Of a DNA stretch of 32,075 nucleotides, positions 3,538-28,336 are shown one piece after another; positions within the stretch are counted from its first letter, which is position 1; the number at the start of each line of letters is the position of its first letter. Position numbers and translations under genes: made by a program. The stretch is from a virus. The notes below the pieces were generated by a model. It ran no database searches. It was not told the origin of the DNA and saw only the letters and a program-made list of their open reading frames with translations. The stretch covers positions 1 to 32,075 of the IMG/VR virus record IMGVR_UViG_3300030380_003667; one strand, written 5' to 3'.

Positions 3538-4352
3538 GTAGAATAACAAATGACAATCCTCCTAAGCGTGGAGAACAACTTACAAGTACAGAGTTGAATC
3601 AAGTATTTACAGAGGTAAATGATGCATTTCCATTAGATGGAGATAATGTCCGCAACGAAGGTATTGAGCAACCATCATTTAACTTAAGTGGCACATCTGG
3701 AAAGTCTGGTATTATTTTGATTGCTGCTGATGATAATACAGATACAGGTACAACGATTGTACCTGCAAATGAAGCAACGTCTACTCCATACGATCCCGCT
3801 ACAGTAGTACACACTTGGTCTACATTGATAACATTTAATAGCAATAAAATAATGCGAGTGTATTGGCAGTTTGAAAATGTAGTAGCAGGTAGTGGTAATG
3901 CGCAACCAATCACAGCAGATACTAACGCAACAGCGTGGGTTGTATGGTTGGAATGGCAGTTGTCTAGTGGTGGTTCTTGGGAAGAGGTTCCTAATCAAAG
4001 TGATTTTGAAGATTTGATTGAAAGTCCAGCTACAAATGGTGCTGTAACGTATCGTACCTATGGAAGTACGATTGTTAATCATGTATACATACATGAACAT
4101 AGTGGAAGTACAGATGTAGATTTTCCTCCTGATCGCACAGCGTATGGATGCTGGTGGTACAAAGCAGATCAGAACTATACAATCTATGGATTGCGTTTAA
4201 AGTGCAGAGGATTGATACAGAACTTTTATGCAGACAATCCTGTAAGTGGTGATGATACTAATGCATGGGAACTGGTTGATAGTCTATCGTCTACACATCA
4301 GATTACAATCGGATCTAGCAATATTGCATATATGGTAATGGAGGAGAAATGA
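3534..4352 (+). CDS. Virion surface protein, unknown
   Basis: This is a 272 aa protein. The start at 3534 (MSRITNDNPPKRGEQLT) is chosen over a longer in-frame start at 3483 because it forms the usual ATGA overlap with the preceding stop and leaves the protein with a normal virion-protein N terminus. The N-terminal text (LTSTELNQVFTEVNDAF) resembles the short helical leader found on several phage surface proteins. It is followed by beta-rich sequence with many Thr, Gly and Asn residues and many Trp residues (about ten). It is coupled to its neighbours on both sides. No enzymatic motif is seen, and its role as an appendage is inferred. Confidence 0.7.
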   Translation: MSRITNDNPPKRGEQLTSTELNQVFTEVNDAFPLDGDNVRNEGIEQPSFNLSGTSGKSGIILIAADDNTDTGTTIVPANEATSTPYDPATVVHTWSTLITFNSNKIMRVYWQFENVVAGSGNAQPITADTNATAWVVWLEWQLSSGGSWEEVPNQSDFEDLIESPATNGAVTYRTYGSTIVNHVYIHEHSGSTDVDFPPDRTAYGCWWYKADQNYTIYGLRLKCRGLIQNFYADNPVSGDDTNAWELVDSLSSTHQITIGSSNIAYMVMEEK

Positions 4353-5005
4353 GCATATCGTTTCCAAAGACATGGTCTTCTGAAAGATTGGATGCAACAG
4401 ATGTTCGAGATAACTTGGATGCAATGAAGAATAAGCAACAGAAGTTGGGTGGTTCAGATATGCAAACTTCTTTATCCTGGATAGATACACATCATCTGAT
4501 GGAAGGAAGATATACAACAACAACCAATATGACAGAGAATATATCTGGTACGTTTGCAGGAAAGAATAATGGTGCTTTTACAAATCGTACATCGTATTGT
4601 TCTAGATGGTTATCTGAAGGGACAAGCAATAATACTAGAAGATTACGTATACCCTATGCAGCCATAACATTTGATATATTACGTCCATGTACAATATTTT
4701 TTCAGTGGCATATGATACATCAATCAAACAATGAAGTAGATGGTACGACAGGCGAGACTGTATTGTATACTGCTTTGAATAGTCCAACTATATCTGGAGT
4801 GTCTGTAGAACATATAGTCGCAGAACAGCCCACGACAAGTACACATAATGTGTTGATAGATGGAACACAGATTACAAATGGTTTTATACTTCGTAATATA
4901 TCTTCACAAATAAAAGGCTATAATATAGGACTGGTAAACACATCCACAGCAGGCATGTGTCAGAATATATCATGGTCAGTATCACTTGAATGTTTTTACA
5001 TGTAG
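4349..5005 (+). CDS. Virion surface protein, unknown
   Basis: This is a 218 aa protein that starts in an ATGA overlap. Its N terminus (FPKTWSSERLDATDVRDNLD, then a helix and a DMQTSLSWIDTHHLMEGRY segment) matches the layout of the preceding protein: a short leader, a helix, then a beta domain. The two may be paralogues or share an attachment module. The beta domain is Thr/Asn-rich with alternating hydrophobics. The likely role is an outer appendage of the particle that is assembled with the two upstream proteins. Exact identity is unknown. Confidence 0.7.
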   Translation: MSISFPKTWSSERLDATDVRDNLDAMKNKQQKLGGSDMQTSLSWIDTHHLMEGRYTTTTNMTENISGTFAGKNNGAFTNRTSYCSRWLSEGTSNNTRRLRIPYAAITFDILRPCTIFFQWHMIHQSNNEVDGTTGETVLYTALNSPTISGVSVEHIVAEQPTTSTHNVLIDGTQITNGFILRNISSQIKGYNIGLVNTSTAGMCQNISWSVSLECFYM

Positions 5006-15760: not shown

Positions 15761-16175
15761 ACGTAATATAAAAAAAATCATCATACATCACAGTGCTAGT
15801 CCTGTGTCAACAACGGTTGAAGACATCGATCGTTGGCATAAAGCACGTGGATGGAGAGGGATAGGTTATCATTATGTGTGCCTTGAAGATGGGTCTATTG
15901 AGACAGGTAGAAATATAAATCGATCTGGCGCACATACCAAGGGATACAACAAAGATAGTATTGGTCTTTGTGTTACTGGCAACTTCCAAGATTATCATTG
16001 TCCTAAACCTAGATTTGATAAGTTGATGACTTTCGTGGGTGAACTTATTGAGCAACATGATTTATCATGGGATCATGTCTATTATCATAAACAGTTTGGA
16101 AATACAGCCTGTTGTGGAAGATTTTTGATTGAACAGTTAAAGCAATACTTAAAGGGAAGACGTTGTCAATGTTGA
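15747..16175 (+). CDS. N-acetylmuramoyl-L-alanine amidase endolysin (T7 lysozyme type)
   Basis: This 142 aa protein has the full length of a single Amidase_2 domain. It cleaves the bond between muramic acid and L-alanine in peptidoglycan. Visible features are the zinc ligands His14 (in IIIHHSAS), His114 and Cys122 (HKQFGNTACCGR), the Gly-Tyr-His block around residue 41, and SIGLCVTGNF at 71-80. The order matches T7 lysozyme (known family with His, His and Cys ligands). No signal peptide is present, so export needs a holin. The start at 15747 has GAGGA just upstream; a longer frame from 15711 would overlap the previous gene further. T7 lysozyme also inhibits T7 RNA polymerase, but no such polymerase is encoded here. 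Confidence 0.93.
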   Translation: MPKGKRNIKKIIIHHSASPVSTTVEDIDRWHKARGWRGIGYHYVCLEDGSIETGRNINRSGAHTKGYNKDSIGLCVTGNFQDYHCPKPRFDKLMTFVGELIEQHDLSWDHVYYHKQFGNTACCGRFLIEQLKQYLKGRRCQC

Positions 16176-16474
16176 AGAAGTTTTTAAAAAGACATCTTGT
16201 ACATGGTGAACTTAAGAAGATTGCTATACGTGCAGGTATACATCAGAACAGTGTGTATGCTTGGGTGAAGGGACGCAATCAGCCATCGGTTGTTTCTCTT
16301 ATATGGTTTTTTCGCGCATTGTCAGAGATCAAAGAGAAAGACTATGTGCTATTATGGATAGAGTATTTGTTTACTCTAGAGGGAAGTAAAGATGCCAATA
16401 AAGAAGTACAAGAGTGGTTACAAAGTCAAAGGGACAAAGACCAAGAAAGCTATGACCAAGAAGAAGGCTGTTAA
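16169..16474 (+). CDS. Helix-turn-helix DNA-binding protein
   Basis: This is a 101 aa protein. The start at 16169 (ATG) is preferred over TTG at 16163, with AAGGGA upstream, and it overlaps the amidase stop. Residues about 14-50 (GELKKIAIRAGIHQNSVYAW followed by KGRNQPSV) form a classic helix-turn-helix of the Cro/XRE kind. A hydrophobic helical part follows, then an acidic tail. The tail (from about residue 75) overlaps a second reading frame at 16392-16520. It could regulate late or lysis transcription, but its operator is unknown. Confidence 0.75.
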   Translation: MLKKFLKRHLVHGELKKIAIRAGIHQNSVYAWVKGRNQPSVVSLIWFFRALSEIKEKDYVLLWIEYLFTLEGSKDANKEVQEWLQSQRDKDQESYDQEEGC

Positions 16475-17677: not shown

Positions 17678-18265
17678 GTCGGGCAAGAACGGTGCTTGTT
17701 TATAAATAGTTGGTATCTTGGGTTCAAACATCCTTTGTTGAATCACATATAAGTATTGATCCTCGATGTCATCTCTTGTCGGGATTTGATCAACACATCC
17801 AATGTAACCATGCACAGAAGAGGTCTTCAAAAACTTGACTCCTTCTGCCTTTGCTCTAGGAGCTTTGATCCTGTGTACATACATGGACTTGACAGCCGCA
17901 ACAAACATATCTCCATTGTACCAGTAGTGTCTGCCTGTCGGTATGTCTACATAGACGATATAGTTTGGGACGTATACCAGGTACTCTGCATATCCCATGG
18001 TAGCTGTCTGTATAATCTCAGCAAAGAAAGTTGGGTATCGATTACCACAGTTTGCAGACTTGACTTCGATCGTTCGTATGTCGTTCCCGATCTCTAGTAC
18101 TATATCGTAGGGTGTGGATTTGCTCTTGGGTAGGTGTGCATTCTTCAGTCCTTGCATGATGAAGAGAGAAAAGAAAGACTCGCTGTGATGGTTGAGCATG
18201 TCCACCACAGCGAGTTCGGATATGAGTCCGGTCTTGAGGAGTTTATGAAATGATTGGTTTGTCAT
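17672..18265 (-). CDS. PD-(D/E)XK nuclease-like protein
   Basis: This is a 197 aa protein from the ATG at 18265 (MTNQSFHKLLKTGLISELAV). The frame is open to 18328 and an earlier start there is possible, but it would overlap the primase gene by 86 bases. Core motif: TPYDIVLE then IRTIEVKSA, matching Asp-x(n)-Glu-x-Lys of the restriction-endonuclease fold, preceded by a conserved helix with GLISELAVVDML. The Glu-Val-Lys is intact, so it is probably active. It is the last gene of the leftward replication block, so a Holliday-junction or recombination nuclease is most likely. A restriction partner for the facing methyltransferase cannot be excluded. Confidence 0.7.
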   Translation of the reverse strand: MTNQSFHKLLKTGLISELAVVDMLNHHSESFFSLFIMQGLKNAHLPKSKSTPYDIVLEIGNDIRTIEVKSANCGNRYPTFFAEIIQTATMGYAEYLVYVPNYIVYVDIPTGRHYWYNGDMFVAAVKSMYVHRIKAPRAKAEGVKFLKTSSVHGYIGCVDQIPTRDDIEDQYLYVIQQRMFEPKIPTIYKQAPFLPDL

Positions 18266-20486
18266 CTTGTTCTGGGGAATAATACCATCCAGAACGATTG
18301 ACTCCATTCCTCCGACAACGCTTGCCATGGTTTTGCAGTTCGCACCCTAGCTGTTTAAGGAGAGTAGGATAAAAGTTAGGATAGGATACAGGTTTGATTG
18401 TGCGTGCGCCATACACTTGCTCAATCATATCCGAAACAGTAAAGTACTGTCCACAGTTTTCGTCCACAAACTCTTGTATAAGTGTGTCGTGTATCCCAGT
18501 CACAGTGTGTTCTTGATTTTTTTCACGTGACAACTTCTGTTCATCGGGAGTCAGCCACCACTGCTCTCCACTTTTGAATGCAGCCACAGCTTCAGCCCAT
18601 AACTGATCTCGCTCTTCAATAAGTTCAGCCTCATCGAATGCCATGTAGTCTTCCTTTCCATGACACTTGATGTACCAGTATCGACGAGATCCTGTTCGGT
18701 CTTTAAAGATTGCAACGTCTTCATCGTTTGCGCTACCCCAGTTTATGGACGAGCGTTTGACCTTCACCTCGTACTTGTCGTATGCTCTTCGGAATGTATC
18801 GGTATCGTCAGACAGGAAGTTCTTTATTGTGTTCGCGTCCTTCTTAGCCATGGCAGATAGTTCAGCCATCTCATGTATCCATGCTGTGCGTAGGATAGAC
18901 TGTCCATCTTTGTGTCCTATGTTTATGGGGCTGCTGTTGTACCAAGAGTAACCTGTTAGCTGACAGTAGCCTGCCATAACTTTGATGAACGTTCCCTTGC
19001 CATGTCCTTGTGGAGCATTTATGACAGGCATGGTATCAACTTTGCATCCAGGTTGTATCGCTCTGGCAACAGCAGCGATCATCCATTTGCGAGAATATAT
19101 CTGGTTGAGTTCGGTATTGTCACACTTGAGATACTTGTGCAGTGTGTTGTGTATTCTTTTGATTCCATCCCATTGCAATGAGTTCAGATAGTCTACTATT
19201 GGGTTGACCTCTCTTTGCTCTCCGTGTATGGCCATCGCGTGCTGCACCATTTTCAGTTCCAAGTTCCGACCTGGGAAGAACTTTTTCCGAAGGTCGCTCA
19301 TGATTCTCAGTTCGGTCACATCCATTACAGGTTGATCTCTCGTAAATAGACGTTGTCGGATCTCACATTTCCAGAGGTCAATGTTAAGACTCCATATCAT
19401 TTCGACGATGTTGTCTACAGACTTGAGATACTTCCACTGTTTGTTCCCATCAGTGTACTGCAGCTCTAAACCATTATCTGTTGTGATGCAATCCAGATGT
19501 GCTTTGCGCTCGTTGACGCACGTGAGTCTGTATCGAGCCACACCCCATAGGTCTACTGCTCTGTGGATAAAAGCACTGCCCAGTGTACCAGACCCTGGAG
19601 CATAGCACTGGTATTTCCCTTTGCGCTTATGTAGGTTAGGCCATTGCTCTACATACCAGTCAAAAGGATGTGCGTTCCCATCTGACCCAGTGATCGGATA
19701 TGTCGATGGTACGCTCAGAACTTTGTATCGTTGTCCTCCAGAAGGAGGAGGAGTATAATCCACAGGCACAGCACTACTAGTGTGTATTGGTTGTGGTCGT
19801 GTGGCGTTGGGATAAGTAGGTACATAGTCTGCCAATAGTTTGTCGATGTTAATCACGCCGCCATCTCCAAACTTACTCCACTTCTGATCTGCCCTGTCAG
19901 CACGTGCGCACGGGAAGAACCAGAACCGTGCAGGGTCTTTTGTTTGTATGTCATTCTCTGGGAAAAACTTTTGCATGGAAAACCAAACACGTTGATACTC
20001 CTTGAGTTTGATGGGACGTGACACAGGGAGAATAAGACGGAATGTGTATCCTTCTTTCAGTCCTTGTGAGTACGATGAGAATGCAGTATAACATACACCA
20101 TCTAATCTTGTGAACACACTGCGTGCTGTCTGCTCGTCAAGACCATCTAGATCCATGATGAATGCATTGACTGTATCGACAGATTCGGATTGTCGGTTCC
20201 CTTCCCTTGTAGCCCACGAAACAGGACAGAATAAAGGGACATCTTCTTTTCCACATTCTATCTTTTTTCCTGCTTTGTTTGTTAGTGTCCTCATGTTATC
20301 GACGATGATGTGACTCATGACATCGTGATGACCTGCGCGTAGGATGATCTCATGCGCATTTGATAGCTTGTTGGTTATCCACCAACGACCTTTCGGAGCA
20401 GGATGTTTTGTAGCAGGAAAAGAAATATCTTCTGCTCTCATGTTGTCGGTTGTGATGTAGTGTGTTAATGTATTTGTACTAGTCAT
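18243..20486 (-). CDS. Primase-helicase fusion (AEP-like N terminus, VapE-type helicase)
   Basis: This is a 747 aa replication protein. Residues about 95-200 resemble an archaeo-eukaryotic-type primase: FIMDLDG gives the paired Asp112/Asp114, and FRLILPVSRP and DPARFWFFPC follow. Residues about 455-670 form a virulence-associated E-type AAA+ domain with Walker A APQGHGKGT (491-499), Walker B WIHEMAEL (536-543), INWGSAND (sensor) and DRTGSRRYW (arginine finger). A central linker has aromatic and Cys residues. It should unwind DNA and lay primers for host polymerase. AAAGGA lies eight bases before the start. The start overlaps the previous stop by 8 bases. No DNA polymerase is encoded nearby. 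Confidence 0.85.
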   Translation of the reverse strand: MTSTNTLTHYITTDNMRAEDISFPATKHPAPKGRWWITNKLSNAHEIILRAGHHDVMSHIIVDNMRTLTNKAGKKIECGKEDVPLFCPVSWATREGNRQSESVDTVNAFIMDLDGLDEQTARSVFTRLDGVCYTAFSSYSQGLKEGYTFRLILPVSRPIKLKEYQRVWFSMQKFFPENDIQTKDPARFWFFPCARADRADQKWSKFGDGGVINIDKLLADYVPTYPNATRPQPIHTSSAVPVDYTPPPSGGQRYKVLSVPSTYPITGSDGNAHPFDWYVEQWPNLHKRKGKYQCYAPGSGTLGSAFIHRAVDLWGVARYRLTCVNERKAHLDCITTDNGLELQYTDGNKQWKYLKSVDNIVEMIWSLNIDLWKCEIRQRLFTRDQPVMDVTELRIMSDLRKKFFPGRNLELKMVQHAMAIHGEQREVNPIVDYLNSLQWDGIKRIHNTLHKYLKCDNTELNQIYSRKWMIAAVARAIQPGCKVDTMPVINAPQGHGKGTFIKVMAGYCQLTGYSWYNSSPINIGHKDGQSILRTAWIHEMAELSAMAKKDANTIKNFLSDDTDTFRRAYDKYEVKVKRSSINWGSANDEDVAIFKDRTGSRRYWYIKCHGKEDYMAFDEAELIEERDQLWAEAVAAFKSGEQWWLTPDEQKLSREKNQEHTVTGIHDTLIQEFVDENCGQYFTVSDMIEQVYGARTIKPVSYPNFYPTLLKQLGCELQNHGKRCRRNGVNRSGWYYSPEQDDKPIIS

Positions 20487-20712
20487 TTTTGTTTCCTTTG
20501 TTGTGATGGCTGGTGTGTGATATGGCCGGTTGAGACTCTTGTTCCCAACCGGCTTCTTTTATTAAGAGCATCATTAGGTTGTCGGCTATGAATAATCCGA
20601 GTGCCTGACGGATGCAAGCAGATGTGTTCAATCCTTTTGCATTGGCTATGGTCTGAAATGTTTCGTATGTCTTCTGGTCCATGCGTAGCATGTATGCTTT
20701 TCGTTTACTCAT
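20479..20712 (-). CDS. Ribbon-helix-helix DNA-binding protein
   Basis: This is a 77 aa protein. The start at 20712 has AAGGAGA eight bases upstream; an upstream in-frame ATG at 20736 has no such site and overlaps the previous gene. The N-terminal 45 residues fit the Arc/MetJ/CopG fold: a short strand (KAYMLRMD), then a helix (QKTYETFQTIANAKG), a turn with LNTSACIRQALGLFI and a second helix. The C-terminal tail is polar. Its stop overlaps the start of the primase gene. Such proteins commonly repress their own operon or control copy number; it is a candidate binder for the palindromes at 23584-24100. Confidence 0.75.
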   Translation of the reverse strand: MSKRKAYMLRMDQKTYETFQTIANAKGLNTSACIRQALGLFIADNLMMLLIKEAGWEQESQPAISHTSHHNKGNKND

Positions 20713-20725
20713 GTCGGGTGTCTCC

Positions 20726-20947
20726 TTATCCTGCATTACAGAATGTTATTGTGTGTTGGTCTTTGAGTACATTAATAATCTGGTTGTATGTCTCCCAAGA
20801 TACTTCCACTGATCGTGTACCCATGACTATGTAGCAGGTTGAATCATCGTCATATTTGCGCCAATGCTCTGTTCTGATCATGTGTGTCGGAACTGTATGT
20901 TGTGTATTATCTGTGTCGATAAACTGAATGAATGATAAGTTATTCAT
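20726..20947 (-). CDS. Small unknown early protein
   Basis: This is a 73 aa protein starting at the ATG at 20947 with GGAG six bases upstream; TTG at 20959 is an alternative. It has no Cys clusters or membrane segment. It reads as a small alpha/beta protein with Trp and Tyr residues (RTEHWRKYDDDSTCYIVMGT, VEVSWETYNQIINVL). It overlaps the neighbouring gene at 20940-20947. It is unknown and probably a host-takeover or replication accessory protein (inference from the block it is in). Confidence 0.65.
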   Translation of the reverse strand: MNNLSFIQFIDTDNTQHTVPTHMIRTEHWRKYDDDSTCYIVMGTRSVEVSWETYNQIINVLKDQHTITFCNAG

Positions 20948-21242
20948 GGCCATCTCCAAATGTTGGTGTGTATATCATAGTCATGTCGTACTCTCCTTTG
21001 GTCGGTTGTGTCGGTGGTGGTGGTGGTGGGAAGAAGGTTGCCTGCATTGCACGGAGCTTCCGCTTGGTGTCTATCAGTTGTTGGTGTAGCTCACCAATCA
21101 GCACCTGGCGTTCTTCCCTAATCTGGTCTGTCATGGTTTCCTGGACGCGTCGGTACGTGTCTAGATGATAGTCTATCTGTAGTTGGAGAATGTATGCATT
21201 ATGCTCTAATGATTGTCGGTGCGTGATATGTCTGTCTGTCAT
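20940..21242 (-). CDS. Coiled-coil protein with a proline run
   Basis: This is a 100 aa protein with AGGAGA about ten bases before its start. Residues about 10-68 form an almost continuous charged helix (coiled coil) rich in Gln, Arg, Glu and Leu. A run of six Pro follows (residues 72-77), then a short tail. The proline run is encoded by GGT/CCA-type repeats, so the DNA is repetitive at about 21013-21030. It may tether two partners or fold as an oligomeric rod with a flexible end. Function is unknown. Confidence 0.65.
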   Translation of the reverse strand: MTDRHITHRQSLEHNAYILQLQIDYHLDTYRRVQETMTDQIREERQVLIGELHQQLIDTKRKLRAMQATFFPPPPPPTQPTKGEYDMTMIYTPTFGDGHE

Positions 21243-21254
21243 GGTTAGTATCTC

Positions 21255-21458
21255 CTATTGATTTGATTTTTTGTGATAAAAATGATATTGCATCCATCCA
21301 TCATCTGAATCGTACTGAAAAACTATTTGCGCGTAGTATCCATCTTCACACTGCATATGTTCAAAGCGAACCCAAATAGATCTGTCATCTATTTGTTTCA
21401 CTTTATCCATTATTTTTTTGGCTTCTTTGTATGTTAAGTCTTTATATATTTTACTCAT
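21255..21458 (-). CDS. Small unknown early protein
   Basis: This is a 67 aa protein with AAGGA ten bases before its ATG. The N-terminal half is a Lys-rich helix (LTYKEAKKIMDKVKQID). The second half is a beta region ending in YHFYHKKSNQ, with one Cys, several Tyr/Phe/Trp residues and acidic patches. Its pattern (helix, then IWVRFEH and YYAQIVFQYD strands) resembles that of the 83 aa protein at 21863-22114, so the two may be paralogues. Function is unknown. Confidence 0.6.
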   Translation of the reverse strand: MSKIYKDLTYKEAKKIMDKVKQIDDRSIWVRFEHMQCEDGYYAQIVFQYDSDDGWMQYHFYHKKSNQ

Positions 21459-21470
21459 GTCGTTTTTTCC

Positions 21471-21743
21471 TTATTTGGTGTGTGTGTCGGTGGTGTCGAT
21501 TGTGTTCGAGCTAAGTGCATCCTGCACAAACTCTCTAGCAAGTTTAATGTGATAGCAAGTCTTTCCATATCTATGAGCAGGACAGTAACAAATCACACCC
21601 CAACCAGGATTTGATAGTCTTTTGTATACTCTTGTTATGGGCGTGTCATTGTCGGAGGTGTTCCATACGATTTGATAACATTGTATTGTGTGGTCGTTAA
21701 TCTTCTGTGTTCTGTTGATCATTCCTACGGGCTGTCTTTTCAT
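21471..21743 (-). CDS. SWIM-type zinc-finger protein
   Basis: This is a 90 aa protein from ATG 21743, where GGAGG is eight bases upstream; a longer frame to 21791 has no ribosome site and overlaps the small membrane gene. Residues 52-65 (CYCPAHRYGKTCYH) match Cys-x-Cys-x8-Cys-x-His, the SWIM zinc-finger spacing known for DNA- or protein-binding domains in larger enzymes. Here it is nearly the whole protein, preceded by about 50 residues of strands. It may bind DNA or a host protein during early takeover. Its start overlaps the previous stop by four bases (ATGA). Confidence 0.65.
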   Translation of the reverse strand: MKRQPVGMINRTQKINDHTIQCYQIVWNTSDNDTPITRVYKRLSNPGWGVICYCPAHRYGKTCYHIKLAREFVQDALSSNTIDTTDTHTK

Positions 21744-21853
21744 TTTGTCAACCTCCAAAACAGCATGAGAGTAGCTGTACAAATGATCCAAATGGAAAAG
21801 AATATTAACGTTGGTTTGAAAATGTTTTGTGCAAAATATATTAGTTCATTCAT
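21740..21853 (-). CDS. 37-aa single-pass membrane protein
   Basis: This is a short frame from ATG 21853 to a stop at 21740, whose TGA overlaps the start of the zinc-finger gene (ATGA). A TAGGA site lies seven bases before the start. The protein has one membrane helix at about residues 14-33 (PTLIFFSIWIICTATLMLFW) with polar ends. Position, ribosome site and coupling support a real gene. It may act on the host membrane early in infection (inference). Confidence 0.55.
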   Translation of the reverse strand: MNELIYFAQNIFKPTLIFFSIWIICTATLMLFWRLTK

Positions 21854-21862
21854 GTTTGTATC

Positions 21863-22114
21863 CTACTTAAAAGGGTTACGTGTCGTTGGGGTTGTATAAT
21901 AGAATGAATCTATGCAAGGACTATCCGAACAGTAACAAGACATGTACCACCTGCTATCATCAAAACAGTATCGAATAACAATCATGAAATATTTTTCATC
22001 TTCTACATTGTGATACATATAATCTGTGATTCGGTTATCCTGTTGAGCAATAGCGTTGAGTCTATCGTGTATTTGTTCGTATGTTAAAGGCGTGTCATAG
22101 TGTCGTGTGTACAT
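21863..22114 (-). CDS. Small unknown early protein
   Basis: This is an 83 aa protein with AGGATA about seven bases before its ATG. It starts with a helix-prone segment (PLTYEQIHDRLNAIAQQD), followed by strands (YMYHNVEDEKYFMIVIRYC) and a Cys-containing end (SCYCSDSPC) with the spacing Cys-x-Cys-x4-Cys. The Cys set might bind a metal. It resembles the 67 aa protein at 21255-21458 in layout. Unknown function. Confidence 0.6.
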   Translation of the reverse strand: MYTRHYDTPLTYEQIHDRLNAIAQQDNRITDYMYHNVEDEKYFMIVIRYCFDDSRWYMSCYCSDSPCIDSFYYTTPTTRNPFK

Positions 22115-22178
22115 GGTGTATCCTGTTTGTGCGTGTGATAGGTTGATCAGTTTAACAACATAATCAGGTTTGAATCTG

Positions 22179-23018
22179 TTATGCTATTCGTGCTATACGT
22201 GCTTTGTGCTGTGTGTTTGTTGCACCGTGTAACACTTCGGTTATTGTCTTTTGTCTCCGAGACTTACCATTGCATAGCATACAAGTTGAACACGTCATAG
22301 GGAGTCCATGCATATCTTTTTTGTCTGTACTTGCTAAGCATCTTATACCCTCTTCTTTTGCTTCCTTTTCGTTGTCAGTTACAAAGAATGTATTCCAACC
22401 TAGCGCACGCGCCTTCTCATTTTCGCGTGCGTTATCGACGCTTGCCATAAATAAATCTTGCATGTCTTGATACTCTGGTTTGTTCCATTGGTGCGTATAT
22501 CCTGTGTAGTTTTCGCAAGTAGAGAGGAGCTTAGACCATACCGAAACAGGAACCGCAGCGGGATCCCCGGCCGCTCCAACTCGGACACGAAGACCACGGA
22601 GAAACTCTTTCGAGAGAGTCATCGGAATAGCCGATTGACTCTTTGCACTTTTCCAAACACTACCAAGGTTACTCCAACGAACATAACATCCATTATTTCC
22701 GTTATATTTACAATCCCCGCAAACAGCAGAAGAACCAGAGAAATATATATCCTTTGGTGTTTCGTGTACGGGTAGAATATAAAGTTGTACGAGAGGACCC
22801 GTCTTTCCGTTGGTGCTGTCTTTCGTAAATCCTGACATGACAACCATGATAGGTGTTTCATTGTCAAGCAAAGAGATACCTTTATATAGTACAAGAGTCT
22901 CCTTATACTTGAGTGCTTTTGTAATGGCTTTGTTGAGTCCTTTGTTGACAAGATTGCGAACGATAAAAGGGCCTGTTGTGTGTTTGCTGTTAGCTATTGC
23001 TTTGATTGTATTAAACAT
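22179..23018 (-). CDS. Conserved Cys-rich phage protein, unknown function
   Basis: This is a 279 aa protein with AAAGGATA shortly before its ATG. Cys clusters are Cys100-x2-Cys103 with Cys111, Cys227, and Cys243-x2-Cys246-x2-Cys249, so a metal site or iron-sulfur centre is plausible. Recognisable blocks are CGDCKYNGNNGCYV, RVGAAGDPAAVPVSVW, YTGYTHQW and MASVDNARENEKA. I recall these as the signature of a widespread phage domain of unknown function. The final Cys cluster and a basic tail (RIARIA) could bind nucleic acid. It is the largest of the early block after the primase. The GC-rich patch at about 22545-22585 encodes the GDPAAVP motif. Confidence 0.7.
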   Translation of the reverse strand: MFNTIKAIANSKHTTGPFIVRNLVNKGLNKAITKALKYKETLVLYKGISLLDNETPIMVVMSGFTKDSTNGKTGPLVQLYILPVHETPKDIYFSGSSAVCGDCKYNGNNGCYVRWSNLGSVWKSAKSQSAIPMTLSKEFLRGLRVRVGAAGDPAAVPVSVWSKLLSTCENYTGYTHQWNKPEYQDMQDLFMASVDNARENEKARALGWNTFFVTDNEKEAKEEGIRCLASTDKKDMHGLPMTCSTCMLCNGKSRRQKTITEVLHGATNTQHKARIARIA

Positions 23019-23045
23019 TTTGTTATCCTTTGGTTGGGTGTGTTT

Positions 23046-23348
23046 TTATAGGTGAGAGTCTAGATATGATACTAGGGCCTGGATGTGTTTATAGTCTGTT
23101 ATTTTGTAGTCGGTCGTGATCTCACTATCTATTATTGGCTTGTGTTTTGACCATTCGATGATACGAAAAGTATCATATGTTTTAAAGTCACGCGTCAATA
23201 TGATTGTGATGTTATCATGGTCAAGCGTGACAAAATGCCTGCAATAGGTATAGATATAATCTTTAAAATCGGAGAACTCGTTTTTTTCACAAAGCTCATC
23301 GTATTCTGAAGCTGTAACGGGGTAGCGATTAAATAGTATCTCGGTCAT
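23046..23348 (-). CDS. Small unknown early protein
   Basis: This is a 100 aa protein with AAAGGA eight bases before its ATG, within the end of the previous short gene. It is rich in Asp, Tyr, Thr and Lys, with an acidic first half (SEYDELCEKNEFSDFKDYIY) and a strand-rich second half (ITIILTRDFKTYDTFRII). No motif is recognised. It is the second gene of the leftward block and is probably made very early. Confidence 0.65.
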   Translation of the reverse strand: MTEILFNRYPVTASEYDELCEKNEFSDFKDYIYTYCRHFVTLDHDNITIILTRDFKTYDTFRIIEWSKHKPIIDSEITTDYKITDYKHIQALVSYLDSHL

Positions 23349-23353
23349 TGGTT

Positions 23354-23530
23354 TTATCCTTTGTTAGTTTTCGGTTCAATCATTGCGAATATACAAACAA
23401 CATACATTATAATGTTAATACAATAGTGCATGCTTATTGCTTTTAATGGGTTGTCAATGATCCAAATAGAGCATTCAAAAGACAACAACAGAAGTAATAT
23501 AAAGATGAAATAATAAATGATGTCTTTCAT
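23354..23530 (-). CDS. 58-aa membrane protein, first gene of the leftward block
   Basis: ATG 23530 with AAAGGA eight bases upstream; the stop at 23354 is part of the AAAGGATAA that serves the next gene. The protein is 58 aa with two hydrophobic stretches: residues 4-18 (IIYYFIFILLLLLSF) and about 36-50 (YCINIIMYVVCIFAM), separated by a short polar loop. It may be a two-pass membrane protein. As the first gene after the leftward promoter it should be made first and could act on the host envelope, for example in exclusion (inference). Confidence 0.6.
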   Translation of the reverse strand: MKDIIYYFIFILLLLLSFECSIWIIDNPLKAISMHYCINIIMYVVCIFAMIEPKTNKG

Positions 23531-23579
23531 TGTTTGTTTCCTTTGTTTGTGTGTATGAGAGTTTTTATCTCTGCTCTAA

Positions 23580-23608
23580 TACATATATCATTTTGATATA
23601 CACGTCAA
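23580..23608 (-). promoter_or_regulatory. Leftward promoter with palindromic operator
   Basis: On the minus strand, TTGACG at 23603-23608 is a near-consensus -35 box. A -10 region lies at about 23580-23587 (TATATG or TATGTA; spacing 15-17). Position 23530, the first leftward start codon, lies about 50 bases downstream. The spacer holds the 17-bp palindrome at 23584-23600, listed separately. The -10 match is imperfect, so the exact box is uncertain. Confidence 0.55.
23584..23600. promoter_or_regulatory. 17-bp palindrome in the leftward promoter spacer
   Basis: Two perfect 7-base arms (TATATCA and TGATATA) flank TTT. The site sits between the -35 and -10 boxes, where a bound protein would block RNA polymerase. 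Candidate binders are the ribbon-helix-helix protein (20479-20712) or a host regulator. An 11-base A run follows at about 23607-23617. Confidence 0.55.
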
Positions 23609-23917
23609 AAAAAAAAATGAAAAATGTTTGTACACGAAAAAATATATTGTTCGCTGATCTATATATAAAGTGTTCAAGTGTTCAAAGATTTTCATTTTTT
23701 TCGTTCTGATATTGAACAGATTGTGAACAGTGATAACATAGGAAGATACTCAGTTTTCATCGAACTGTTCGACTATACTATAAAAGTGTTCAATAAAGAT
23801 TATGCCCAAAAGCTTACATTATCATATAGTGTTAGGATTTTTTTTAAAAGGTTTAGGAGCCTAGGAACAAGCGAACACAAAAAAAAATACAAGAATATTT
23901 TTGAGTCCTATTATCTA

Positions 23918-23956
23918 CTCACTAGTAGGTAAGTGAGTCCGTAATCTACTAGTGAG
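23918..23956. repeat. Inverted repeat, 11-bp arms
   Basis: CTCACTAGTAG (23918-23928) and CTACTAGTGAG (23946-23956) are exact reverse complements separated by 17 bases. A third AGTGAG lies in between (23932-23937) and could form an alternative hairpin with the left arm. It may be a DNA hairpin or a binding site. It does not resemble a terminator because no T run follows. Confidence 0.7.
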
Positions 23957-24017
23957 AAGGTTAATAACATACTGCACGCGCGTTCAGTGGTGTGGATGAA
24001 CCGAACACTGTTCACCT

Positions 24018-24053
24018 ACTGAACACTCATTCAGTACTGAACATCCATTCAGT
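24018..24053. repeat. Tandem pair of 18-bp inverted-repeat units
   Basis: Two adjacent 18-bp units (24018-24035 and 24036-24053) have the form ACTGAACA-yy-CATTCAGT and differ only at the two central bases (CT versus TC). Each unit has perfect ACTGAA/TTCAGT arms. The exact spacing and variation only at the centre are characteristic of a protein-binding iteron pair. Confidence 0.75.
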
Positions 24054-24100
24054 GTCTATGCGCTACCGAACACTGTTCGGACACTGTACAAACGTTCAGG

Positions 24101-24275
24101 TCGGGGGGACCCCCAAAGCGGTGTAATAGAGAAAATGGGGACACCAAAAAATATCTGGATGACTTTTTTAGATTTTGGTTGTTTTAAGGCACTGAGGACA
24201 TGTTTTTGTTATACTATTTTTGCATGGTGTTTTCGATGATATATTTATTTTGTATATATCACGCAGGAGGATACC
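24101..24275. other. Leader upstream of the rightward block; G/C run and AT-rich region
   Basis: GGGGGGACCCCC (24103-24114) is a homopolymer palindrome. It is followed by AT-rich DNA with TATACT (24210-24215) and TATATT (24240-24245), either of which could be a -10 box. Neither has a good -35 box at normal spacing, so I do not call a promoter. AGGAGG at 24265-24270 serves the next gene. No other gene is seen. Confidence 0.5.
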
Positions 24276-24728
24276 GTGTACACAGATTATGGAGTAGGCA
24301 TGGCAGAACACAAAAGTAAGATTCCAACAAAAATACAAACATTTATAGTCAAAATGAATCCCGTTGCAAAGGGTAGACCCAGATTTACCAAGGCAGGTCG
24401 AACATATACACCGAAAAAAACGAAAGAGGCTACAGATGTAATCGCGAAAAAGATTGAAGAGCAAAGAGGAGAGCAGATTCCAAAGGGTGCGCCTGTTTCG
24501 TTGTATTGTAAATTTATGTGTAAACGTCCAGTGAGTATGGGTAAGGGTGATAGGGTATTGAAGACGACCAAGCCAGATGTAGATAACTATTTAAAACTTG
24601 TTATGGATGCTTGTAATCAAGCGCAGGTTTGGGAAGATGACAGTCAAGTGGTTGAGGTTCTTGCACAGAAATGGTATTGTGCTGATTACCAAGAGCCAGA
24701 GGTTCAGATACAGATAAGTAGGTTATGA
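24276..24728 (+). CDS. rusA-like: RusA-type Holliday junction resolvase
   Basis: This 150 aa protein cuts four-way DNA junctions; in phages it resolves branched DNA before packaging. Family features are GRPRFTKAG in the N-terminal part (residues 33-41), the acidic pair Asp101/Asp103 in TTKPDVDNYLK, and a third acidic site in VWEDDSQVV (Asp121/122). The start is GTG at 24276 with AGGAGG five bases upstream. An ATG at 24300 with GGAG is an alternative that would remove 8 residues. It is the first gene of the rightward block, next to terminase, as usual for junction resolvases linked to packaging. Confidence 0.85.
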   Translation: MYTDYGVGMAEHKSKIPTKIQTFIVKMNPVAKGRPRFTKAGRTYTPKKTKEATDVIAKKIEEQRGEQIPKGAPVSLYCKFMCKRPVSMGKGDRVLKTTKPDVDNYLKLVMDACNQAQVWEDDSQVVEVLAQKWYCADYQEPEVQIQISRL

Positions 24729-24729
24729 T

Positions 24730-25113
24730 ATGGCAATGAAGATTACACAGAAACACAAAAAAGCAGCGTTGTTGTGTGCGCAGGGATACTTGAGTTTAAA
24801 ACAGATCGCAAATGAAGTTGGTGTGGCTCGACAGACTGTAGTGCAGTGGAAACAAAAGGCTGAGTTTAAAGCTTTGATTATGGGATACAATGAGCCTTTG
24901 TTTGATACGGAGGTACGAGAGCGTAATCTACTAGACCAAGCATATAAGACGTTACAGATTGTAATGGAGAATGGTCAGAATGATGGTGCGAAGGTAAATG
25001 CTGCAAAGTATGTGATTGATACATTTCGAAACAAGAAGGGTATTAAGGGTAAGTTTAGTGATGCAAATGATGGTGAGATGAAGAACATCTTGAAGTTGGT
25101 TGAGGAGAAATGA
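24730..25113 (+). CDS. Small terminase subunit-like protein
   Basis: This is a 127 aa protein. An N-terminal helix-turn-helix is visible (about residues 18-45: LSLKQIANEVGVARQTVVQW), followed by a helical part (VRERNLLDQAYKTLQIVMEN) and a Lys-rich tail with EMKNILKLVEE. Recognition of the phage packaging site by such a helix-turn-helix is typical. It directly precedes and overlaps the large subunit (ATGA). The sequence is not close enough to a named family for a stronger claim. Confidence 0.75.
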   Translation: MAMKITQKHKKAALLCAQGYLSLKQIANEVGVARQTVVQWKQKAEFKALIMGYNEPLFDTEVRERNLLDQAYKTLQIVMENGQNDGAKVNAAKYVIDTFRNKKGIKGKFSDANDGEMKNILKLVEEK

Positions 25114-26654
25114 GTTTACCGTATATTTCCTACAAGGTTCCTCGCAGACATCGTAAGGATTTGCAAGATGTATTGAAAGACCCGATAAAGTTTTTTCGAT
25201 TGTTGCGCGTACAAGATAAGTATAGTGGTGCTTACAAACAGTTTGACTTGTATCCTGAACAGGAACAGTTATTGCAGCAGATATGCAGTAGCAATAAGAT
25301 TATTGTTGTAAAGCCCAGACAGATTGGAGTGAGTACACTATTGCGTGCGTATGCATTTTGGAAGGTGTATACCAGTAAAGATCCTATTAAGTATGGTGTA
25401 TTAAGTTTCCATGATCGTTCTGCCAAGCATCTCCGAAAGATGGACAACAACTTTCTTGCAGGTTTGCCAGAGATGTTGCAGCGTCATTGTTCGATCGACA
25501 ATACAACGGATTTGATTTTCGATGATACACAAGCTGGCCTTTCCTCGTATACTGCGAGATCTAGTGGAGGTACTCGTTCGTTTACTTTGAATGCAGCGCA
25601 CTTGAGTGAGTTTGCTTTTTATCCGGATCAAGAAGAGGTATTGGCACAGGTTGTAGCGACAGTGGGTAAGGGTCAGATTGTGATTGAGTCTACACCCAAT
25701 ACTGTTGGTGATATATTTCACAAGTTGTGTAAAGAGGCTCCAGATAATGGTTGGACACTTGTAACGTTTTGGTGGTGGCAACATCAGAACTACAGGACCC
25801 CTGCACCTACAGACATGATATACACAGAAGAGGAACAAAAGCTAATAAACTTGTATGGATTGGATGATGATCAGATACAGTGGCGCAGAGAACAAGTTGC
25901 AACCATTGGTATTGATAAGTTTAAGCGAGAGTATCCTGCATCGATCGATGATGCTTTTTCGTTTGGTAGTTCTGCCTATTTTGATCCCGATGCGTTAGAT
26001 CGTATCGAGCCTATTATCTTTGATGGTAACGAGCGTGTGTACGAAAAGGAGGTATACAGTGATGATGTATATGCAGTTGGAGTTGATGTGGCAGGGGGTG
26101 TTGGTGGTGATTATAGCTGCATTTGTGTTGTGTCTTGTTCTAGCCGTGAAGTAGTTTATCAGTACAGATGTAATACCATAACTCCTGTTGAGTTTTCTGA
26201 AAAGATTATGCATATTGCACAGAAGTATAATGATGCAATGGTGTTGTGCGAATCGAACAATCATGGTCATGTAGTGATTCAAAAGTTGATTGACTATGGA
26301 TATACGAATCTGTGGTACAGTGCAGAAGGTAAACATTGGGTAACCAGTTCGAAAAGTAAGATTGAGGCATATGAGATTTTGCGTGAAATGATTTCTTCTG
26401 ACATGTTGTCTAGATTAGACATGACAACTTTAATGGAGCTTCGAAGTATGACAATATATAAAGTTGCACCAGAGGCTCCTAATGGTTTGCATGATGACTT
26501 GGCAGACTCGTTGGCATTGGCTTATAGATGTGCTAGAGATATACCAAGTTATATGGTTCGTAATGCAAAACAAGGATTGATGGATAGATTGATTAGCAAT
26601 CGCCGAGCAAAACGTATAAGATTAATGCGAATGCCTTATAGGAGCGCACAATGA
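25110..26654 (+). CDS. terL: Large terminase subunit
   Basis: This 514 aa protein is the packaging motor: an ATPase that drives DNA into the capsid and a nuclease that cuts it. The ATPase has a Walker A-like KPRQIGVST (residues 68-76), and Walker B/coupling with AAHLSEFAF (about 165-175) and GQIVIESTPN. The RNase-H-like nuclease has GVDVAGGVGGDYS with the first Asp at about residue 326, VLCESNNHG, and GLHDDLADSLALAY near residues 458-471. The start overlaps the small subunit stop. Its overall layout is of the Terminase_6 type. Confidence 0.95.
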   Translation: MSLPYISYKVPRRHRKDLQDVLKDPIKFFRLLRVQDKYSGAYKQFDLYPEQEQLLQQICSSNKIIVVKPRQIGVSTLLRAYAFWKVYTSKDPIKYGVLSFHDRSAKHLRKMDNNFLAGLPEMLQRHCSIDNTTDLIFDDTQAGLSSYTARSSGGTRSFTLNAAHLSEFAFYPDQEEVLAQVVATVGKGQIVIESTPNTVGDIFHKLCKEAPDNGWTLVTFWWWQHQNYRTPAPTDMIYTEEEQKLINLYGLDDDQIQWRREQVATIGIDKFKREYPASIDDAFSFGSSAYFDPDALDRIEPIIFDGNERVYEKEVYSDDVYAVGVDVAGGVGGDYSCICVVSCSSREVVYQYRCNTITPVEFSEKIMHIAQKYNDAMVLCESNNHGHVVIQKLIDYGYTNLWYSAEGKHWVTSSKSKIEAYEILREMISSDMLSRLDMTTLMELRSMTIYKVAPEAPNGLHDDLADSLALAYRCARDIPSYMVRNAKQGLMDRLISNRRAKRIRLMRMPYRSAQ

Positions 26655-28336
26655 AAGCAAAGATTGCAGAAGCATTGTTTCGTAAACATGAACAATATTG
26701 GGATGAGCAAAAAGCAGAGTTGAGGAAACTTCGTGCTGCATACATGACTAGGTATTGGGACAAGGATTATGCACCTGATCAGATTTTGATTGAAACAACA
26801 CGTGCGTATGAATACATCGAAGGTTATATAGCATCGTTGTATGCTCGCAATCCTTCTGTGATTGTCAAGGGTGATGTACGAGGAAGAGGGGATTCACAAA
26901 AAGTCCAAGCCCTATCCAATGCGTTTCTTGATAAAGTTCGAACACAGATTGAGGATGTGTCACGACTCGCTTTGATATACCCATGTGCATTTTTGAAACT
27001 GTATGCGACACAGCATCCAGATCCATTTAAACGTGTGGGTGTATCAGCGGTTGCGGCATGGGATGTAGTTGTAGATACAGATGCACCAAGTTGGAGTGAG
27101 CAAAAGTATGTTGGACACAGGTATCATATTACTTTGCAAGATGCGAAAGCCAAGTATGGTAACAAGAAGTATGCATCACATCAGTTGATTCGATTCCTAG
27201 ATTACGATAGTAGTCATGACAATGCACCATATATGGCAGCAAACTTGTCAGCATTAAATGAAAGTGGTCATGAGCCAGACAATCCTTTTGAGTATATTCA
27301 AGTTATAGAGTTTTATGATTTGGAAAGCAATAAGATGTATGTTTGGAGTCCAGATTATTCTAATGGTGAGAAGTGGTTGTTTGATGGAGTGGAGATTGAG
27401 ATTGGTGATGGAGAGAATACAGAGGTGCAGAAGTACGATCAGATACCATTTACTGACGCGGCTAATAATCCTTTGGCTCCTTTGGTTCCTTTATATTTCT
27501 CTCGTCAGCCAGATTTGCCTTTGCGTGGGTATTCAGCACTTCGTAGAGTTTATTCACAAGTAGAGGAAACCAATATAATCCGTACATATCAGTCTACGAT
27601 GGTACGTAGAGCAGCAAGACAATGGATTGTAAAAAAAGGTGTATTTACTGATGAAGATATGGCCAAACTAGCGTTGGGTGCAGATGGTGAATATATTGAA
27701 GCAGAACTTAGTCCAAGTCAGAATCTGAGTGGCTCGATACAGGCAGTTCCTCATACAGGTGTTCCTGCTGAACTAGAGACATATATACGACAAGTTAATG
27801 ATGATTTCCAACGTGGTAGTGTTCTTGCTCCGTTTACAAGAGGAGAGGCGACACGTGCAACAGCTACAGAGATTACAGCATTGGCATCGTACAGCTCAAG
27901 TGAGATTGGACGATTGGCGCGTGAGCGTGATGCAATGATTGAGTATGCTGCATCTGTTTATGTATCGATGATGAAAATCTTTTTACAAGATGAACCAGAT
28001 GTGATTGTCATAAATGGCAAGACTCAGATTGTTCGTTCTGAAGATTTAGATGGAGACTTTAGTTTTTACGCTTTAGATGCAGGAGCGACACCAGTATCAG
28101 AGGCAGTGAAGAAGCAGGACTTCTTACAATCAATCGGGATTTTAATGGAGTTGGGAGTTCCACAACAAAAAGTCTTACAAGAACTTGTACGCAAGTTGGA
28201 TCTTCCAGAGGATTTCCTGGAGACAAACGTCGAAGGAATACAAGATTTAACACAAACACAACAACAACCCTCACCTACAGCAACGATAGAACAAGGACAA
28301 CAAGGTAGTCCTCAAGCAGTTGCACAAGTTTTATAG
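26651..28336 (+). CDS. Portal protein
   Basis: This 561 aa protein forms the twelve-subunit channel at the vertex where DNA enters and the tail attaches. It follows the large terminase with a 4-base overlap. It shows a long N-terminal helical segment, a central beta-rich wing (VIEFYDLESNKMYVWSPDYS) and helical stretches such as EIGRLARERDAMIEYAASVY. It has a Gln/Pro-rich C terminus. Podovirus portals are longer than siphovirus ones and this size fits. No catalytic residues are expected. Confidence 0.9.
   Translation: MKAKIAEALFRKHEQYWDEQKAELRKLRAAYMTRYWDKDYAPDQILIETTRAYEYIEGYIASLYARNPSVIVKGDVRGRGDSQKVQALSNAFLDKVRTQIEDVSRLALIYPCAFLKLYATQHPDPFKRVGVSAVAAWDVVVDTDAPSWSEQKYVGHRYHITLQDAKAKYGNKKYASHQLIRFLDYDSSHDNAPYMAANLSALNESGHEPDNPFEYIQVIEFYDLESNKMYVWSPDYSNGEKWLFDGVEIEIGDGENTEVQKYDQIPFTDAANNPLAPLVPLYFSRQPDLPLRGYSALRRVYSQVEETNIIRTYQSTMVRRAARQWIVKKGVFTDEDMAKLALGADGEYIEAELSPSQNLSGSIQAVPHTGVPAELETYIRQVNDDFQRGSVLAPFTRGEATRATATEITALASYSSSEIGRLARERDAMIEYAASVYVSMMKIFLQDEPDVIVINGKTQIVRSEDLDGDFSFYALDAGATPVSEAVKKQDFLQSIGILMELGVPQQKVLQELVRKLDLPEDFLETNVEGIQDLTQTQQQPSPTATIEQGQQGSPQAVAQVL

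Follow-up and report, generated by a model that had tools for sequence, protein, structure and literature searches.

Paired TGAACA half-sites upstream of rusA as a probable replication origin in a group of uncultured phages

An array of six sites within 130 bp occupies the intergenic region between two divergent gene blocks in an uncultured phage. Because its sites most resemble those of the origin of satellite phage P4, it is likely to be an origin of replication. The reading preferred here, held with a little more than even confidence, is that of an origin bound by the phage's own VapE-type helicase-primase. The DNA analysed (the window) is an IMG/VR virus record of 32,075 bases from an uncultured phage group. 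Its rightward block, on the plus strand, carries rusA-like, terminase, portal and capsid-like genes, and its leftward block, to the left of the array, carries the helicase-primase gene (Table 1). Positions 18000-26700 gave zero nucleotide matches against 50,697 phage records.

Relatives were collected by scanning viral contigs with the RusA and TerL proteins, which yielded 23 and 24 loci respectively. Twenty contigs, window included, were examined whole. They total 443,447 bases and contain near-duplicates, for instance G008 and G009. Sites were counted as inside if they lay at most 1000 bp upstream of rusA; G017, which lacks rusA, was counted wholly as outside. The whole module is present in six genomes: the window, G001, G003, G006, G007 and G008. 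Of the 19 contigs with rusA, 9 stop short of 1000 bp upstream of the gene, which suggests that assemblies break at the repeats.

Table 1. Features of the window that bear on the array
Feature	Coordinates	Strand	Remarks
Small helix-turn-helix (HTH) protein	16163..16474	+	conserved in group; rival binder
VapE-type helicase-primase	18243..20486	-	proposed initiator; C-terminal winged helix at about residues 662-740
Ribbon-helix-helix (RHH) protein	20479..20736	-	overlaps helicase gene; rival binder
Second half-site cluster, TGAACA/TGTTCA	23671..23792		at 23671, 23679, 23713, 23724 and 23787; partly direct repeats; AT-rich DNA
AT-rich stretch, 71% AT	23800..23899		between both half-site clusters; candidate melting region (inferred)
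A site 1 (ACTGCACG-CG-CGTTCAGT)	23971..23988	+	left half degenerate
B site 1 (ACCGAACA-C-TGTTCACC)	24000..24016	+	holds GGTGAACA at 24009-24016, minus strand
A site 2, first unit	24018..24035	+
A site 3, second unit	24036..24053	+
B site 2 (ACCGAACA-C-TGTTCGGA)	24065..24081	+	spacer 1
A site 4 (ACTGTACA-AA-CGTTCAGG)	24083..24100	+
rusA-like Holliday junction resolvase	24276..24728	+	first gene of rightward block; anchor for relatives
Terminase small subunit (TerS)	24730..25113	+	rival binder; 630 bp from array

The array is built from two kinds of site, which alternate. A sites follow the pattern ACTGnACR-NN-YGTTCAGT and are pairs of half-sites with a 2-bp spacer. B sites follow the pattern GAACA-N-TGTTC and are pairs of half-sites with a 1-bp spacer. 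In the relatives the A dyad is 8+2+8, written ACTGAACA-NN-TGTTCAGT.

The sites, the rule for their spacing, their conservation and their restriction to one intergenic region can be read directly from the group. Palindromes with spacers of 0 to 8 bp were sought in the 20 contigs and counted when at least 14 of the 16 arm bases fitted. Spacers 1 and 2 account for 15 and 43 palindromes (58) within the 1000 bp upstream of rusA and for none elsewhere, while the remaining spacers gave 4 inside and 8 outside. The hexamer TGAACA is likewise the most enriched of the region, with 136 copies against 6.6 expected, and its cores number 154 in the 14,841 bases inside compared with 296 in the 428,606 bases outside. 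Ranked by genome-wide clustering, it comes first among hexamers in 5 of 13 contigs, second in three and fifth in one; in the other four (G010, G012, G013 and G015) it falls outside the top six. Inverted half-sites stand 7 and 8 bp apart, start to start, and direct repeats most often 8 and 10 bp apart, the latter as expected for iterons.

The sites are further organised into A-B-A cassettes of 46-47 bp. In the window the layout A-28.5-B-18.5-A occurs twice in direct order, and in relatives the duplicate is inverted. For instance, G003 and G007 each have one inverted and one direct copy of the cassette. The same holds for G001, except that its last B falls short of the cut-off; B sites are absent from G008. 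The A sites are spaced 47/18/47 bp, within 2 bp, in all six whole-module genomes. Site arrangements differ in G002, G004, G016 and G018. Two A sites 47 bp apart are found in G013 and a single one in G012, and B sites only in G005 and G014. That G010, G012 and G013 have one or two A sites at most, and other repeats instead, counts against the origin reading.

Other repeats are also present in this part of the genome. In the same intergenic region, L011, L012, L016-L018, L015 and L013/L019 carry different families, such as TTGACAATCTGTCA and ATAGCAAGTTTGTTA, so the region upstream of rusA is hypervariable. Clusters of ACAAG/CTTGT occur in G010, G012, G013 and G015, and G016 (L239) has about a dozen short direct repeats of the ACAAGA(G) type at about 1338-1600, upstream of its RHH-helicase operon. 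A third spacer-locked palindrome, AATCTACT-N4-AGTAGRTT, is found in the window at 23912-23931 and 23943-23962 and also in G001-G004, G006 and G007. At 13/16 it occurs 28 times inside and 3 times outside, and its pairs are often 46 bp apart.

The two middle A sites were the subject of a preliminary description, which reported abutting 18-bp units, ACTGAACACTCATTCAGT and ACTGAACATCCATTCAGT, that differ solely at positions 9 and 10; letters and coordinates are both correct. In 300 first-order Markov simulations neither exact ACTGAA-N6-TTCAGT, of which the window has two copies, nor an abutting tandem of it ever arose. With up to three mismatches allowed, ACTGAACANNCATTCAGT has 8 matches against 0.77 expected (100 shuffles). 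A pattern made of the arms alone was rejected, as its 30 matches at the same tolerance, against 25.6 expected, are at chance level. Since the arms-only pattern is not enriched, only close matches carry meaning.

Conserved arms around a free centre, as the preliminary description had it, are borne out by the relatives. The 24 A sites (four in each of six genomes) were matched by position rather than by score and compared by pairwise difference. Columns 9 and 10 rank first and second of 18 in variability, at 0.75 and 0.70 (0.73 for both), against an arm mean of 0.17. Equal variation of arms and centre was thus not what the same locus displayed across relatives. Columns 5 (0.63), 11 (0.55) and 18 (0.55) are loose as well, and the two halves are unequal, YGTTCAG on the right being far more strictly kept than CTGnACR on the left. 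The strict half has the same orientation in 23 of the 24 sites, the exception being site 2 of G001.

The same description proposed a protein dimer that reads only the arms. Conserved arms and a free centre agree with this, but the arms are read unevenly, and a simple arm-reading dimer is not required, because the hexamer TGAACA also occurs in direct repeat, 8 or 10 bp apart. Its further suggestion, that the two units could be the highest-affinity site, found no support. Both have CA at positions 11-12 where the family has YG, which breaks the inner arm pairs. Other sites thus fit the family better, and nothing marks these two as the strongest: measured against the family pattern each scores 14/16, the same as the site at 24083 and less than sites in relatives that reach 16/16.

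The likeness to P4 is clearest in one relative, G011 (L014), which has four direct repeats in the homologous region. A 49-nt query of these repeats, chosen after the likeness to P4 had been noticed, matched 3 of 50,697 phage records. All three are P4, with 25 of 25 bases (E 5e-4), and the matches fall on its annotated origin and two "ori type 1 repeats". Against plasmid records, 2 of 72,556 matched, the better being a 4.8-Mb E. coli record at E 0.02. Counted against the origin reading, G011 has no A or B palindromes and its contig has no helicase gene.

The sites of P4 and of the phages described here have both common and distinct features. The 16 annotated ori type 1 repeats of P4 are TGTTCACC or close variants, and its iteron is GGTGAACA. 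Like the type 1 iterons of P4 ori and crr, the sites here have a TGAACA core in clustered direct and inverted copies. They differ in that most are palindromes whose halves stand 1 or 2 bp apart and which form A-B-A cassettes, and the flanking GG is mostly replaced. The octamer GGTGAACA is not repeated in the window, where it occurs once (in B site 1) against 1.2 expected, and across the group it is found 7 times inside, in 5 genomes, and 8 times outside. Broad sharing is limited to the hexamer core, which counts against the origin reading.

The helicases provide a second link. The window helicase matches PF05272 (E 2.7e-68) and scores below cut-off for DUF5906. Its best phrog is phrog_256; it also matches phrog_2249 (E 3.2e-35), which P4 alpha matches over its full length (E 3e-241). 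The two thus belong to a common profile family with an SF3/P4-family helicase core. The only sequence relative in the PDB found by profile at E below 5 is 7pds, a VapE-type helicase (E 2.6e-42).

The P4 alpha protein binds the origin repeats through a winged-helix domain (PMC4234260). The C-terminal 108 residues of the window helicase are modelled as a winged helix (pLDDT 81), with Z of about 7 to assorted winged helices in a fold search; a model of the helicase with its C-terminus has pLDDT 56. No phage origin-binding domain is prominent among the fold-search matches listed for the C-terminal model. Among these listed matches PDB 1ka8, the P4 origin-binding domain, does not appear. By profile, the C-terminal domain of the window helicase is not recognisably P4-like. 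Comparison by hhalign gave no link between ten helicase orthologues and P4 alpha alone, nor between the window helicase or its C-terminal domain and either P4 alpha or the helicase of an unrelated contig, G020 (L054). The negative outcomes of the hhalign comparison and of the fold search count against the origin reading.

From this evidence we infer the binding protein, the melting and the origin function. The elementary site would be the half-site TGAACA, paired into spacer-2 and spacer-1 palindromes, with a second, looser cluster of half-sites in AT-rich DNA about 200-300 bp upstream. The C-terminal winged helix of the helicase-primase may dock on the half-sites. Docked protomers could then assemble and the AT-rich stretch melt, after which the helicase would load and prime. 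The GC skew, which is monotonic with no turn at the array, counts against the origin reading.

A related arrangement is known from the origins of SaPIs and PICIs, which are bound by Rep, a helicase of VapE or D5 type; the comparison here is one of layout and helicase. In SaPIs the origin follows rep immediately downstream, and PICI origins are reported to have two site clusters that flank AT-rich DNA (PMC6092414). The phage resembles these elements in its VapE-type helicase with a modelled C-terminal winged helix, and in its two clusters around AT-rich DNA, of which the upstream one is loose. It differs in that the array is not directly downstream of the helicase gene but upstream of it, at a distance of 3.5 kb, which counts against the origin reading, and in being a phage of about 33 kb rather than an island. 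The phage also differs from P4 in having terminase, portal and capsid genes of its own. We class the array as a variant of those iteron origins on which self-loading helicases act rather than as a P4 origin, because the octamer is unrepeated in the window and kinship of the binding domains is putative.

One speculative extension, which we regard as rather unlikely, recasts the P4-type iteron as a code of two spacings, with directional A sites and symmetric B sites packed into A-B-A cassettes that can be inverted but keep their length. Each of the two spacings would select its own assembly state of a single initiator, and the orientation of the cassette would set the direction of the fork. For instance, B would carry a holding dimer and A a helicase-loading complex.

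The alternative that survives best is an operator array, although it appears unlikely. In this model, dimers of the HTH or the RHH protein bind the palindromes and control the divergent blocks. The array does lie between such blocks, and the HTH and RHH genes are found in 12 and 9 of 20 contigs, many of which are fragments. The HTH protein, being well conserved, and TerS, whose gene is 630 bp away, are fair rivals as binders. Operators of temperate phages similarly have dyads of 17-18 bp in a divergent intergenic region. Against this model, no array site overlaps a candidate extended -10, identified by eye at 24207-24215 and separated by 107 bp from the last site on its left, and the HTH and RHH genes have no such sites nearby (0 beyond the region). 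S24 peptidase and tyrosine integrase are each found in 0 of 13 records, a further difference from temperate phages, so nothing points to a lysogeny switch of either type, although a small repressor lacking S24 may be present. The model further leaves unexplained the direct-repeat form of G011 and its match to the P4 origin.

Support for an operator also comes from outside the group. In L053, an unrelated 73-kb contig without a D5_N match, the same 18-bp palindrome follows CAAC beside promoter-like DNA at 4450, 6068 and 6309, the third copy being imperfect. Since a contig without that match carries it, the palindrome by itself cannot identify the protein that binds it, and its presence there counts against the origin reading.

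A packaging role is improbable. TerS would here bind the array as pac or cos-flanking sites, next to a conserved G-rich block. That block, GGGGnnCCCC...TTTGGGG-AGCC-AAAAAATATCTGGATGACTTTTT, lies between the array and rusA (24103-24169), is recognisable in most of 16 contigs compared, distant ones included, and is itself a candidate cos/pac or terminator; a terminator scan found none. The array adjoins it 630 bp upstream of terS, its sites are directional, and a G-rich tract adjoins the array of G020 too. However, contig ends near the array do not share one position but lie anywhere between 210 and 1036 bp upstream of rusA, and no terminase is annotated in P4, the phage with the origin that G011 matches.

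A site for site-specific recombination, resolution or partition made of A-B-A cassettes is very unlikely: the cassettes are rigid at 46-47 bp, with direct and inverted duplicates, but tyrosine integrase is found in 0 of 13 records and the P4 origin match is again unexplained.

SOS boxes bound by host LexA are the least credible of these models. CTRHAMRYBYGTTCAGS is listed under delta proteobacteria and CTG-N10-CAG is the gammaproteobacterial form (PMC2248561). The A pattern fits both by eye, with the CTG-N10-CAG layout and a right half GTTCAG, although these consensus groups may not be those of the host. Here, however, four to seven sites are arrayed away from any recognised promoter, B sites form a second class with a spacing 1 bp shorter, and half-sites are directly repeated. 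A hairpin or RNA reading was rejected, with a DNA fold z of -1.5 and no Rfam match at gathering score.

Similar sites can be found elsewhere. An exact-pattern scan of viral contigs returned 59 stretches, nine of which belong to the group as judged by contig name; genome contigs were also scanned. Outside the group these are mostly single sites without a TGAACA cluster, the exceptions among the matches listed being L054, L049 and L053. The first of these, G020, has 15 spacer-2 sites in 300 bp (4262-4561) at a cut-off of 13/16, and encodes a protein that matches "phage/plasmid primase, P4 family" at 123.1 bits against a curated cut-off of 108.7; this pairing of sites and primase supports the origin reading. 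Its best tblastn matches to window proteins are weak (an amidase at E 0.002, one structural protein at E 0.007). L256 was set aside, as its two copies lie in apparent coding sequence and it has no tblastn match to window proteins. Among the matches listed, two bacterial contigs each have two A-type sites exactly 775 bp apart (6431 and 7206 in L155, 6340 and 7115 in L172). When the arrays were compared with phage records, that of the window had no match, that of L003 had five, all at E 2 or worse, and that of L054 had 45, at E 0.3 or worse among the matches listed, Gordonia phages included. A literature search of titles and the starts of abstracts found no description of this array.

If the origin reading is true, it would provide an origin and an initiator for uncultured phages without a nucleotide match in the phage collection searched, and it would connect P4, a classic satellite, with full tailed phages through their replication signals. 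The two-spacing reading, if true, would mean that origin signals are common to satellites and full phages. The rule of a 1- or 2-bp spacer, together with an invertible cassette, makes a clean test object for the use of paired sites by self-loading helicases.
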